Assembly (NCBI RefSeq): GCF_028290025.1
Contig: NZ_JAQGKQ010000046.1
Coordinates: 1-64,000 of the forward strand
Source: Cypionkella sp.
Lineage (GTDB): Bacteria; Pseudomonadota; Alphaproteobacteria; Rhodobacterales; Rhodobacteraceae
Length of the DNA stretch: 64,000 nucleotides
Reading direction: 5' to 3'
In this document: piece after piece, positions 21,861 to 27,080 of the stretch
Numbering within the stretch: position 1 is the first letter of the stretch
Layout of the letters: each line of letters starts with the position of its first letter
The notes under the pieces: model-generated
Databases searched by the model: none
Seen by the model: only the letters and a program-made list of their open reading frames with translations
Told to the model about the DNA's origin: nothing
Made by a program: the position numbers and the translations under genes

Positions 21861-21889
21861 TTGACGAACATACCATGAACACCTAAATT
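21861..21889 (+). promoter_or_regulatory. SOS promoter: LexA box GAAC-N7-GAAC between -35 and -10
   Basis: The -35 TTGACG (21861-21866), 17-nt spacer and -10 TAAATT (21884-21889) make a good sigma-70-type promoter. GAAC-ATACCAT-GAAC (21866-21880) is an exact match to the alphaproteobacterial LexA operator (GTTC-N7-GTTC read on the other strand). It lies inside the spacer, where bound LexA would block RNA polymerase. A further GTTC lies at 21892-21895. Confidence 0.75.
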
Positions 21890-21895
21890 GAGTTC

Positions 21896-23128
21896 ATGGT
21901 AAAGATGACCCTTCAAGACAAGCTGGCCGTGCTTTCGGATGCGGCGAAATATGATGCCTCCTGCGCCTCGTCAGGTGGCGAAAAGCGCGATTCCCGCAGC
22001 GGCGGGTTGGGGTCTTCGGGCGGCACCGGCATTTGTCACGCCTATACGCCGGATGGTCGTTGCATATCCTTGCTTAAAATCTTGATGACCAACTTCTGCA
22101 TCTTCGATTGCGCCTATTGTATTAATCGAGTGTCCTCAAACGTTGAGCGTGCGCGCTTTTCGGTCGAAGAGGTGGTGTCCCTGACGCTGGAGTTCTACCG
22201 CCGCAACTATATCGAAGGGCTATTTCTGTCGTCTGGCATCATTCGCTCGCCGGATCAAACTATGGCCGACATGGTGCGGATCGCGCAGACATTGCGTGAA
22301 GAACACGGCTTCAAAGGCTATATTCACCTCAAAACCATCCCCGATGCCTCGGCTGAGTTGATCAAAGCCGCCGGGCTCTATGCTGACCGTCTCTCGATAA
22401 ATGTAGAATTGCCACAGGATGCTTCGTTGCGCAAATTTGCCCCGGAGAAACGGCCGGAAACTATTCGAGCCACGATGGCACAAGTGCGATTAGAAGGGGA
22501 GGCCGCGAAAGAGCTGTCCCACACGGGTAAAAAGCCGCCCCGGTTCGCGCCAGCGGGTCAAAGCACCCAGATGATCATTGGCGCGGACGGCACAGACGAT
22601 GTCACCATTTTGACCAGTGCCACCCGGCTTTACACCGGCTACAAACTGCGCCGGGTGTATTACTCAGCTTTCTCCCCGATCCCGGATGCCTCCGCCGCAC
22701 TGCCCTTGGTCCAGCCGCCACTGCTGCGTGAACACCGTTTGTATCAGGCGGACTGGTTGATGCGATTCTACGGCTTTAGCGCCGAGGAAATCGCAACCGG
22801 CACCACCGCTGGGCACCTTGATCTGGATCTCGACCCCAAGCTTGCGTGGGCCTTGCAGCACCGAGGGGCGTTTCCGCTCGACGTTAATCTGGCAACGCGC
22901 GAAATGCTGCTGCGCGTGCCGGGCTTCGGCACCCGCACCGTGGATCGCATCATAGCTGCCCGCAAAAGCCGCAGCCTTCGCTATGAAGATCTGGTGCGAA
23001 TCGGCGCTTTGATGAAAAAAGCCAAAGCGTTTATCACCTTGCCTGGCTGGACTCCCGGCGGCATGACTGACAGCGCCAATTTGCGCGCGCGTTTCGCACC
23101 GCCTCCTGAGCAGTTGCGCCTGATTTGA
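21896..23128 (+). CDS. Putative DNA modification/repair radical SAM protein (TIGR03916-like)
   Basis: A 410-residue radical SAM protein. The [4Fe-4S]/SAM cysteines are C68-x3-C72-x2-C75 in NFCIFDCAYC, preceded by DGRCISLLKILMTN. The radical SAM barrel runs to about residue 290 (LFLSSGIIRSPDQTM, GYIHLKTIPDAS, LSINVELPQ). The C-terminus has a helix-hairpin-helix-like segment (LRVPGFGTRTVDRIIAARK), a DNA-binding element. This combination defines the family annotated as a putative DNA modification/repair radical SAM protein; its reaction is unknown. The stop overlaps the next gene by 4 nt. ATG 21896 lies at the predicted transcription start; ATG 21905 (MTLQDK) is an alternative. Confidence 0.9.
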   Translation: MVKMTLQDKLAVLSDAAKYDASCASSGGEKRDSRSGGLGSSGGTGICHAYTPDGRCISLLKILMTNFCIFDCAYCINRVSSNVERARFSVEEVVSLTLEFYRRNYIEGLFLSSGIIRSPDQTMADMVRIAQTLREEHGFKGYIHLKTIPDASAELIKAAGLYADRLSINVELPQDASLRKFAPEKRPETIRATMAQVRLEGEAAKELSHTGKKPPRFAPAGQSTQMIIGADGTDDVTILTSATRLYTGYKLRRVYYSAFSPIPDASAALPLVQPPLLREHRLYQADWLMRFYGFSAEEIATGTTAGHLDLDLDPKLAWALQHRGAFPLDVNLATREMLLRVPGFGTRTVDRIIAARKSRSLRYEDLVRIGALMKKAKAFITLPGWTPGGMTDSANLRARFAPPPEQLRLI

Positions 23129-24573
23129 GCTACGCGGTTAGCCTGCCGGAACGTGGCACTTTGCAGGCATGGCGCGCAGCGGCGCGGCTTGCAATTTCAC
23201 ATCGTATCCCCCCCGATCAGATTGAATGGGCGGATGCTGGCGGCTTGTTTGCTGCCCGGGTTTTGCCCACCGAAATTGGTCCACATCAAGCGCACGTCCC
23301 GGCGGCTTTTCTAAAGCTCGCTGGTTCGGTGATCTGGCACACTGCGCCCGAGCGGCTTTCCCTGCTTTATCAGGCGCTTTGGCGCATCGACCATAACGAC
23401 GCAGCCCCTCTGTCGCAGGCCGATATTCTGGGCCGAAGACTGAACCTGATGGCGAAATCGGTTGGCCGTGATATTCACAAAATGCACGCCTTCGTACGCT
23501 TTCGCGAGATTCCGACAGATTTCGCGAAGCCCCACGCCCGCCGTCGTTTTGCTGCGTGGTTTGAGCCTGAGCATAACACTCTCGAGCCCGGCGCGACGTT
23601 TTTCGCCAAGCGTTTTGCCGACATGGATTGGATGATCGCTACCCCGCGCCTCACCGCGCAATTTTGCGACGGCGCGCTGAGCTTTGGCCCAGCAGGCGCG
23701 CGCCCCGATCTGCCAGACGACGCTTCTGAAACGCTGTGGGCCACCTACTTTGCCAACATTTTCAACCCGGCGCGGATTAAATTGGATGCCATGCGTTCCG
23801 AGATGCCCAAGAAATATTGGAAAAACTTGCCCGAAACCCGATTGATCCCCGAAATGCTCAAAGATGCGGAGGCTAGGGTACAACGGATGCGAGACGCTGG
23901 CAGCACCGCGTCTCGTCCAGGGGCGGCTGCGGTATCCACCCGCTACCGTGATGCAATGCCGCACGCGGCCGAGCTGCCCGAGACGTTGGATCAGGCCCAA
24001 AACGCCGCGATGCAGTGCCGCCGCTGTGGTCTGTGCGAGGCCGCGACTCAGACCGTTTGGGGAGAAGGTCGCCGCGATGCCGCCCTGATGATTGTCGGTG
24101 AGCAACCAGGTGATCAAGAAGACCTCGCCGGACGCGTTTTTGTCGGGCCCGCAGGACAGGTGTTACGGGATGCCATGCGCAGGGCGCAACTGGACCCTTC
24201 GCGGGTTTGGCTGACAAACGCCGTCAAACATTTTAAGTTTACCCCACGCGGCAAGCGCCGTTTGCACCAGTCACCTGATCGTCAGGAAATTGAGTATTGC
24301 CGCTGGTGGCTTGGTTTGGAAATCGGCTTCATCCGGCCGCGCTTGACACTTGCACTCGGGGCTTCGGCCGCCTTTGCGCTAACCGGAGATGCGACTCCGC
24401 TATCTGGCCGCCGTGGCAAGGTGCAAGCCGGATTGCATGACGGCCCCGTCCTGGTAACTTGGCACCCGTCTTATATCCTGCGCTTACCCAATCCCGACCA
24501 GCAACACCGCGCTCAGGAAGAATTGCTTAGCGATCTTGTGATGGCGGCACATCTGACGGCGGATGGGTTGTAA
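23125..24573 (+). CDS. DUF4130 / UdgX-family uracil-DNA glycosylase fusion
   Basis: A 482-residue two-domain protein. Residues 1 to about 255 match the DUF4130 (TIGR03915) family that partners the preceding radical SAM protein (HKMHAFVRFREI, WFEPEHNTLEPGATFFAKRF). Residues about 280-482 are a family 4/UdgX uracil-DNA glycosylase: cysteines C298, C301, C304 and C392 for an iron-sulfur cluster, GEQPGDQED (325-333), VKHFKFTPRGKRRLHQSP with His381 at the position that in UdgX forms a covalent bond with uracil-site DNA, and TWHPSYILR (from 445). It starts at TTG 23125, overlapping the upstream stop as TTGA, so the pair is translationally coupled. Uracil repair is the likely role. Confidence 0.92.
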   Translation: MSYAVSLPERGTLQAWRAAARLAISHRIPPDQIEWADAGGLFAARVLPTEIGPHQAHVPAAFLKLAGSVIWHTAPERLSLLYQALWRIDHNDAAPLSQADILGRRLNLMAKSVGRDIHKMHAFVRFREIPTDFAKPHARRRFAAWFEPEHNTLEPGATFFAKRFADMDWMIATPRLTAQFCDGALSFGPAGARPDLPDDASETLWATYFANIFNPARIKLDAMRSEMPKKYWKNLPETRLIPEMLKDAEARVQRMRDAGSTASRPGAAAVSTRYRDAMPHAAELPETLDQAQNAAMQCRRCGLCEAATQTVWGEGRRDAALMIVGEQPGDQEDLAGRVFVGPAGQVLRDAMRRAQLDPSRVWLTNAVKHFKFTPRGKRRLHQSPDRQEIEYCRWWLGLEIGFIRPRLTLALGASAAFALTGDATPLSGRRGKVQAGLHDGPVLVTWHPSYILRLPNPDQQHRAQEELLSDLVMAAHLTADGL

Positions 24574-24672
24574 AGCGGAGCGCTGTCTGTGCGGCTTCAA
24601 GTCTGCCGAGCCTTGAACCGAGCCTGCGCAACCGTTACCCTGCGCGATGGTGCAGCAATCAGGATTTCAGAC

Positions 24673-24918
24673 ATGGCGCAGCGTCTTCATCTGGTCTTCG
24701 GCGGTGAGCTTGTCAGCCCGCAAGACAACGTTTTCAAGGATGTCAGCGAGATCCACATCGTAGGTATGTATCCCGATTATGCGACGGCATTTTCGGCATG
24801 GAAGGCCGAGGCGCAGCGCACGGTTGATAATGCCCACATGCGGTATTTCATCGCGCATATTCATCGTCTGCGCGAAGAAAGCTCGCCCGGGTCACTGACC
24901 GAAGAGATGGGCGCGTAA
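24673..24918 (+). CDS. DUF4170 family protein
   Basis: An 81-residue protein beginning MAQRLHLVFGGELVSPQDNVF and containing IVGMYPDYATAFSAWKAEAQRTVDNAHMRYFIAHIHRL, the typical DUF4170 pattern. The function is unknown. ATG 24673 is chosen over an in-frame start at 24589 because the family begins with this Met. It sits 12 nt before the Kdo-transferase-like gene and is commonly found in that company, so it may take part in lipid A/core metabolism or its regulation; this is inference. Confidence 0.85.
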   Translation: MAQRLHLVFGGELVSPQDNVFKDVSEIHIVGMYPDYATAFSAWKAEAQRTVDNAHMRYFIAHIHRLREESSPGSLTEEMGA

Positions 24919-24930
24919 GCGACCGTTTTT

Positions 24931-26121
24931 ATGGTAATCTCATTAGGTCGAACGCTTTATAATCTGACCGGACGGCGTGCTGCAGGCATTGCTAAAGCCT
25001 GGCCCGCCCGCCCGCCGGGCGATTTGATCTGGTTGCATGCTTCAGAGATCGGCTGTTCGCGTGGCCTGCGGCAACTTGCGTTACGGCTTGTCGAGGAACT
25101 GGGCGTCACCGTGCTTTTGACTTGCCCGGAAGAAGTGCCGTTGACCAACGGCATGTTGCTTCAACCGCCACCGTTGGATACCCCTGCAGAGGCGAAGGCT
25201 TTTTTGTCGCATTGGGCCCCTGCGCTTGCAATTATGTCTGAGGGAGAGCTGCGTCCAGCGTTGCTGTTTGAGGCGGAAGCGCGCCACCTATCAGTGATTA
25301 TGGTTGACGCGCGGGCACCGTTTTTGCCGAAAGAGCGCGACGGTTGGTATCCAGGACTGATGCGTGCGGCGTTGCAGTCTATCGCCCAAGTGCTTGCGGT
25401 GGATGAGACTGCCGCTCGGGCGTTTCGACGTGCGGGTGCTGCAGAAGTCGCGGTGGCTGGACGGATGGAAGAACCGTCAACCGCACTGTCGTATCACGAG
25501 CCTGAACGTGCCATGCTGGCCGGGCTGTTGGCAACGCGCCCGGTCTGGCTTGCAACCGACGTGCCTGCGGCAGAAGAAGCGGCGGTGATCGGCGCGCATC
25601 GATCAGCTCTGCGGTTGGCACATCGGTTGCTGCTAATTTTGGTGCCGCAAGATCCTGCGCGGGCCGAAGTATTGGCGGCGCAGATGGAGGCGTCAGAGGG
25701 GTGGACGGTCGCGCAACGCAGTCTCGATCAAGAACCGCATACGGAAACTGAGGTCTACATACCCGATTCTACCGCCGAATATGGCCTGTGGTATCGGTTG
25801 GCTCCGGTAACCTATATGGGCGGGTCATTGCTGGGTGAAGGCTGTGCCCGCAACCCGATGGAGGCTGCAGCGTTGGGATCAGCGATCGTTTACGGGCCAC
25901 GACCGGGCGATTACGGTCTTGCGTTTGGTCGTTTGGGCGCTGCTCAGGCGGCGAGAGCGGTGGGGTCGCCCTCGGATTTGGGCGATGCGCTAAGCGACCT
26001 ATTGGCGCCCGACCGGGCGGCGCGGCTGGCGCATGCGGCTTGGGCTTTGGCCTCAGATGGGGTTGAAGTGACAGACCGTGTGGTCGAGTTTGCCCGCAGG
26101 GTTTTGGATGGGTCAAGCTGA
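24931..26121 (+). CDS. waaA: Kdo-transferase-like glycosyltransferase (WaaA/KdtA family, divergent)
   Basis: A 396-residue GT30-type glycosyltransferase expected to add 3-deoxy-D-manno-octulosonate to lipid IVA at the inner membrane. The N-terminal domain is recognised by [24 protein letters not shown] and [30 protein letters not shown]; the C-terminal domain by [33 protein letters not shown], which resembles the FVGGSL...G.N..E.A..G segment of WaaA. The WaaA active-site Glu normally in the H-A-x-S-V-G-E segment is replaced (HASEIGC), so catalysis needs confirming. It overlaps lpxK by one base (TGATG), supporting a lipid A role. Confidence 0.8.
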
Positions 26122-27080
26122 TGCGCGCGCCGGGGTTTTGGTCTTATCCGCCGGGACGTCCGGGAATTTGGGCGCGGGTTTTGGCTCCGCTCGGGTGGAT
26201 ATATGGCTGGGCTACGGCGCGGCGGCTGCGTGAAGTAGGTTATCGGGCTGCGGTGCCGGTGATTTGTGTCGGTAATATCAACGCAGGTGGGACCGGGAAG
26301 ACACCGACCGCGATTACTTTGGTAGAGCGGTTGATTGCTCGGGGGCGGCGCGTGGCTGTGGTCAGTCGGGGGCATGGTGGAAGTTTGAGCGGGCCAGTGC
26401 AGGTTGATCCGGCGCGGCACCGGGCGGATCAGGTGGGAGATGAGCCGCTGTTGCTGGCGGCGTTTTGTGACGTTTGGGTTGCAAAGGATCGTGCGGCTGG
26501 GGTGAAAGCGGCGGAGGCGGCGGGGGTTGACGTGATTTTGCTCGACGATGGGTTTCAGAATCCGTCGGTGGTGAAGGATCTGTCGATTGTGGTGGTTGAT
26601 GCGGTGGTGGGGTTTGGGAACGGGCGGTGTATTCCTGCGGGGCCGTTGCGGGAGCCGGTCTCGGTTGGGTTGAGCCGCTCGGATTTTGTGCTGGCGATTG
26701 GGGATGGGTTCTCGGTGGAGGGCGTGCCTTTGCTGCGCGGGCGGTTGGAGGTGCTGGCGATGGGGATGGGCTGGGCTGGTGAGCGCGTGCTGGCTTTTGC
26801 GGGGATCGGGCGGCCGGAGAAGTTCTTCGCGACCCTGCGGGGCGAGGGGGCTGTCGTGGTGCGGGGCGAGGCTTTGGACGATCATCAGCCGCTGTCAGAG
26901 GCGTTGCTGACCCGGTTGGAGATTGAGGCTTTCGCGAAGGGGGCGCAGTTGGTGACGACGGAAAAGGACGCGGTGAGGCTGCCGAAAGCGTTTCGGGCAC
27001 GGGTTCTGACTCTGCCGGTGCGGCTGCGGATTGAGGATTGGGCTCCGCTCGATGCGGCGTTTGATCGGTTGGGGATTTAA
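26121..27080 (+). CDS. lpxK: Tetraacyldisaccharide 4'-kinase
   Basis: A 319-residue membrane-associated kinase that phosphorylates the 4' position of the lipid A disaccharide. The Walker A-like motif [11 protein letters not shown] is at residues 51-61, followed by [29 protein letters not shown] and [11 protein letters not shown], all standard LpxK blocks. The N-terminal hydrophobic segment (about 14-34) is the membrane-binding helix. Its start overlaps the stop of the waaA-like gene. Length is normal. Confidence 0.95.

Follow-up and report, generated by a model that had tools for sequence, protein, structure and literature searches.

A pair of overlapping genes lies on the plus strand within the window, that is, the whole 64-kb stretch of DNA that was analysed. 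The first (21896..23128, 410 aa) is a radical SAM gene of the TIGR03916 family (rSAM_link_UDG), scored at 583 bits against a cut-off of 343.5, and the second (23125..24573, 482 aa, 4-nt overlap with the first) encodes a fusion of DUF4130 (TIGR03915) and UdgX (TIGR03914), likewise over the curated cut-offs, in agreement with a sequence-only reading of this DNA that had named a radical SAM/UdgX operon here. We take TIGR03916 to be equivalent to COG4277, and UdgX to fall within COG1573.

The LexA-type operator GAACATACCATGAAC (GAAC-ATACCAT-GAAC; 21866..21880, no strand assigned), spanning -30 to -16 relative to the radical SAM start codon, is an exact GAAC-N7-GAAC, as the same reading had stated. 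A promoter scan placed a predicted -35 hexamer, TTGACG, at 21861..21866 and a predicted -10 hexamer, TAAATT, at 21884..21889 (both plus strand; at -35, and -12 to -7, from the start codon), a pair with 17-nt spacing and 9 of 12 consensus bases. This was the sole match of the scan in 5 kb, with 2.0 expected in shuffled sequence, and the scan by itself proves nothing about a promoter. The earlier description of both hexamers as good holds for the -35 (5/6 consensus bases) and not for the -10, which is only fair (4/6). The first G of the box is the last base of TTGACG, and the operator overlaps the predicted core promoter, sitting between the two hexamers.

An AlphaFold model of the radical SAM protein was obtained with a pLDDT of 83 and a pTM of 0.81. 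The protein carries a CxxxCxxC cluster motif, with C68, C72 and C75 invariant in 32 aligned proteins, and had no sequence match in the PDB; the 50 PDB fold matches listed for the model are radical SAM barrels in general (HydE, BioB, HydG, LipA-type and others). Identity as the spore photoproduct lyase SplB was not supported: only TIGR03916 (NCBIfam) and Radical_SAM (Pfam) were matched at E 0.001, and spore photoproduct lyase was named in none of the 50 fold matches listed. Residues ~326–358 presumably form a helix-hairpin-helix-like stretch, for which no library match was found.

In the fusion protein, the UdgX part contains motif A (GEQPG, within GEQPGD), the R-loop KRRLH (KRRxH, with the nucleophilic His) and motif B (HPS). 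R379 and H381 are invariant in 26 aligned proteins, and in a search by pattern KRR[LIVM]H occurs in only 46/64 neighbours and GEQPGD in 61/64. Nearly all of the 50 PDB entries listed as fold matches belong to the UDG superfamily, and nothing was learned from them of the DUF4130 fold. Residues 275–476 aligned with Mycobacterium smegmatis UdgX (PDB 6ajo, 6ail, 6iod and others; E 2.2e-45, fold match), with which the protein shares GEQPGD and the KRR-x-H loop; unlike that enzyme, it has DUF4130 as a fusion partner and is encoded in a pair with a radical SAM gene, and its loop reads KRRLH rather than KRRIH.

Downstream (24589–27080), a DUF4170 gene begins 15 nt after the UdgX gene and is followed by a Kdo transferase gene (waaA-type) and lpxK, and read-through of an SOS message into these lipid A genes is conceivable. 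The operon is carried on plasmids in Paracoccus denitrificans and Phaeobacter inhibens DSM 17395, and relatives of the radical SAM protein are encoded in 158 plasmid records and 10 phage-collection records, the latter including two that bear the name Acinetobacter phage MD-2021a, as well as human faecal contigs labelled 'Bacteriophage sp.' that carry no annotation. On plasmid p2 of Azospirillum sp. TSA2s, the radical SAM and UdgX genes are separated by a TnpB-family gene. In Parabacteroides and Acinetobacter, the radical SAM gene stands beside a TIGR03915-type or 'DNA metabolism' gene of ~250–265 codons, which is too short for the UdgX fusion, so the radical SAM and DUF4130 parts may be the core of the system and UdgX an addition.

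The box against chance

The motif is short and common in the 4.3-Mb genome, and a match could be an accident without function. GAAC-N7-GAAC was found twice in the window, with 1.69 expected and two or more in 46 of 100 shuffles, and 94 times in the whole genome, compared with 180 for a reversed control pattern. A bare match is thus no better than chance, and the motif count alone was rejected as evidence. What raises this box above chance is its position before the operon, its spacer and its conservation in the genus and the class. Under a matrix made from the boxes of 151 relatives, with the window's own box left out, the spacer ranked 3–4 of 93 own-genome sites, and 0.11% of random spacers scored as high; this matrix also captures the -10 of the operon promoter, so that two signals are mixed in it, and lexA's own box ranked only 51 of 93.

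Conservation was counted over 192 alphaproteobacterial loci, excluding weak or partial matches (L167–L178 and L183), a repeat locus (L150) and 13 alphaproteobacterial matches out of the 55 that a phylum search had placed over the cut-off. An exact box lies just upstream in 189 of these loci (180 unique 90-nt regions; 165 clusters under 75% identity), which bears out the earlier expectation that a motif scan would find it kept upstream of homologous operons. Two of the other three have one mismatch, and the third has no box at the operon (G316, a genome of 1.5 Mb whose LexA-type matches are C-terminal only). Within the genus, the gene was over cut-off in 5 of 15 genomes, own included; the box, whose loss in close relatives would have counted against the reading, is present in 4/4 same-genus loci with a full-length gene, and TTGACG abuts it in these four as in the own locus. 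Within the order, the radical SAM gene was found in 57 of 121 genomes, and all 58 loci have an exact box starting at most 60 nt from the model match. A class sample gave 15 of 16 loci with an exact box and one without, and in one assembly (G164, 85% complete) the box is present with no lexA match found, contrary to a simple rule by which box and lexA would go together. Among the named loci (the best 80 of at least 587 relatives), 78 are exact and all 80 have at most one mismatch; of these best 80, that of Pseudorhodobacter sp. PARRP1 comes closest to the window's radical SAM protein (94% identical).

Spacing and position controls were run on a first pooled set of 156 loci (of 159), which held some loci twice (the own locus, and named records equal to sampled genomes). 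The N7 box was found in 153 of them, other spacings in 0–5 and CAAG-N7-CAAG in 2, and the N7 box was found neither inside the coding region nor farther upstream (0 each). Against this spacing specificity, the class-wide conservation and the replacement of the box by CTGT-N8-ACAG in 19 of the 29 non-alphaproteobacterial relatives, a functionless chance match is given almost no credence.

A single lexA match was found in the own genome, and its promoter carries a like box 31 nt ahead of the start. A same-form box lies within 200 nt upstream of lexA in 14/14 alphaproteobacterial regions examined, own included, although in some it is 124–154 nt away and may be unrelated. This control set comprised the own genome and 13 of 16 class genomes, leaving out G152 (split match) and G316 and G164 (no full LexA); for G323, where no start codon could be located, the model match served as the reference point for the distance. 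Exact boxes were also found in the own genome ~200 nt upstream of the recA gene match, and upstream of uvrA, a uvrD/pcrA-like gene and a PA0069-type radical SAM gene (L080). They occur as well upstream of flagellin, dnaA and pheT genes, which are not known to be SOS genes.

Several other own-genome (G000) sites were observed in the same search. A box identical to that of the operon lies at C84:19885-19899 (minus strand; locus L103, C84:18900-20900), upstream of genes for a small membrane-type protein and a Peptidase_M78 (IrrE-like) protein, near what we take to be a resolvase-like gene, and is possibly the SOS box of a mobile element. It shares AGGGGATT just downstream with two other boxes (L083 and L084, on C53 and C57), and in two of these three AGGGGATT is followed by CGAGAAGG. 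Two overlapping GAAC-N7-GAAC boxes lie between photolyase-like and pepN-like genes (L019, C20:19508-19533). GAACATATAGGGAAC, ranked first among own sites, occurs twice (L079, C52:13085; L093, C68:31596), in each case near small ORFs; that at L093, the one scanned, had no Pfam family match.

Box type outside Alphaproteobacteria

The phylum search placed 84 of 398 genomes above the TIGR03916 cut-off, 29 of them outside Alphaproteobacteria. GAAC-N7-GAAC was found in none of these 29 loci. CTGT-N8-ACAG, the LexA box of gamma- and betaproteobacteria, was found exact in 19 and with one mismatch in 5, and was missing in 5; CTGT at other spacings (N5 to N11) gave 0. Conversely, the CTGT-N8-ACAG box occurs in 0/159 alphaproteobacterial loci, nor in 9 more. 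Upstream of lexA in five CTGT-type genomes the same box is exact in three and has one mismatch in two, and the named Betaproteobacteria Caballeronia and Cupriavidus have an exact CTGT-N8-ACAG at the radical SAM/UdgX operon.

The operon follows the box type of LexA in most of the lineages examined, not in all. Three genomes of the f184 family (G499, G685, G758) have a LexA-like gene with TTAGTAGTAATACTACTAA at lexA and no recognised box at the operon, where another regulator may be in control; a palindrome, TCTCATCCAATGAGA, stands before the radical SAM gene in all three f184 loci (L310, L322, L333). The operon is also without a recognised box in G730, whose divergent LexA is below cut-off, and without a box in G482, a genome outside the class with only a C-terminal LexA-type match. 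Upstream DNA of Parabacteroides, Subdoligranulum, Fusobacterium, Gemmatirosa and Acinetobacter, read by eye only and for motifs other than the two Bacteroidetes motifs of PMC8565304, showed no recognised box.

Promoter geometry and the start of the message

Across the 180 unique regions, the box ends 0–7 nt before the start codon in 130 (2 nt in 77), 8–18 nt in 34, and farther in 16. TTG begins at -36/-35 in 70/130 and 18/34 regions of the first two layouts, with at most 16 and 3 in any other 2-nt bin, and TA stands at -12 in 85/130 and 16/34. The distance from promoter to start codon is kept while the box shifts by ~13 bp, so that in the major layout the box lies over the -10 and in the minor layout in the -35/-10 spacer; the window has the minor layout. 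Where the box stands farther off than 18 nt, the promoter signal is weak (TTG 5/16, TA 1/16).

The two layouts bear on a further reading of the conservation, in which it is due to the promoter and start region rather than to LexA, and the GAAC repeats simply come with the -10. The major layout, having the -10 within the box spacer and so mixing both signals in the matrix, would fit that reading, but both GAAC halves and the exact 7-nt gap persist while the box moves ~13 bp relative to the -10, the box stands in GTTC orientation in 21/180 unique regions, and its type changes outside the class. Conservation of the promoter without LexA is, on these grounds, very improbable.

Shine-Dalgarno-like four-mers (AGGA, GGAG, GAGG) were found in the tested upstream stretch of 15/180 unique regions, and none of the three in the 12 nt examined before the start codon in the window. 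For comparison, the 14 regions upstream of lexA have their box ending 16–154 nt before the start, and 6 of them contain such a four-mer. The spacing of the promoter to the start codon, together with the scarcity of Shine-Dalgarno-like four-mers, predicts a leaderless SOS message, with transcription putatively starting at the ATG (21896) or close to it. A start several nt farther upstream of the ATG, giving a short leader from the same LexA-controlled promoter, would account for the regions in which the -12 TA is missing (45/130 and 18/34) and for the 16/180 with a distant box and weak promoter signal; it is harder to reconcile with the concentration of TTG at -36/-35 and the rarity of Shine-Dalgarno-like four-mers, and is regarded as unlikely, though to be taken seriously.

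Also considered was a message that does have a leader and is translated under the control of a hairpin over the start codon, with a 10-bp inverted repeat (21871-21880/21892-21901) as its arms. In the window this repeat is perfect, but it is absent in the four same-genus relatives, where the longest inverted repeats are 5–7 bp and of other sequence, and hairpin control was rejected for this reason. Its left arm would also lie outside the message if transcription starts at the ATG, and in two layouts the promoter elements stay at a set distance from the start codon; this reading is considered improbable.

In the broader proposal, operator, -10 and start codon would form one ~45-bp unit from which SOS induction gives a leaderless message across Alphaproteobacteria, the promoter-to-start distance having been selected while the box slid by ~13 bp, or was replaced by CTGT-N8-ACAG outside the class. 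We hold the chances of this proposal to be evenly balanced.

Proposed regulation and relation to known systems

With high confidence, GAACATACCATGAAC is assigned as the operator of a LexA-repressed SOS operon, and on the evidence of sequence SOS control of the radical SAM/UdgX gene pair is very probable; that this control is direct, as the sequence-only reading put it, we infer. LexA binding, repression, induction and the start site at this operon are accordingly given as predictions. In undamaged cells, a LexA dimer on the operator between -35 and -10 would block RNA polymerase, and upon DNA damage RecA filaments would trigger LexA self-cleavage, opening the promoter. One message, predicted from the spacing to begin at or next to the ATG and hence to be leaderless, would encode both the radical SAM protein and the DUF4130-UdgX protein. 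By analogy with M. smegmatis UdgX, which according to the accessible part of PMC10359453 excises uracil and attaches itself covalently through H109 to the abasic sugar, the UdgX part may excise uracil and stay covalently bound to the abasic sugar. The role of the proteins is most likely repair of damaged or uracil-containing DNA, and a tentative guess would make the lesion, or the cross-link, the target of the radical SAM and DUF4130 parts.

Published work already describes SOS control of such a gene pair, and the window is a well-supported new example, not a discovery. The accessible text of PMC8565304 reports SOS regulation of the COG1573-COG4277 pair in Alphaproteobacteria and Verrucomicrobia, which it credits to its references 7 (Erill 2016) and 65 (Paes da Rocha 2008, Caulobacter), and gives evidence for, or prediction of, SOS regulation of a UDG-based two-gene system in Bacteroidetes. 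The operon described here is like that COG1573-COG4277 (UDG and radical SAM) operon in having the same kind of gene pair under LexA control in a class named there, and differs from it in the new genus and in the description of the operator in the -35/-10 spacer and of the start-codon geometry. It also resembles the SplB/PA0069-type radical SAM genes of SOS regulons, as a repair-type radical SAM gene with a LexA box, although TIGR03916 is a separate family.

In the portions available, PMC3765255 predicts DUF4130 to be an enzyme related to mutagenesis and links it to SplB-like radical SAM proteins and to UDGs, and PMC9380542 lists a Streptomyces radical SAM gene with a LexA site. The in silico LexA sites of Dinoroseobacter in PMC6473078 do not name the gene pair in the part of the article available, 'radical SAM' and 'uracil' being absent from its main text; none of six regulation terms occurs in PMC10776899, and LexA does not appear in the accessible part of PMC4287350. 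By title, and within open-licence literature, no paper was found on leaderless start-codon geometry of a LexA-controlled operon. This geometry is possibly new, and together with the change of box type across classes it may be the part of the analysis that adds something.

If the leaderless proposal is true, translation of an SOS repair enzyme from such a message might continue under stress that impairs ordinary initiation. The physiological role of UdgX is called largely unknown in the accessible part of PMC10359453, and the protein appears in papers on uracil mapping and base editing. The present comparison indicates that the radical SAM/DUF4130/UdgX module belongs to the SOS response of most of the examined Proteobacteria that have it, whichever LexA box they use, and this membership argues that the substrate of the module arises with SOS-inducing damage.
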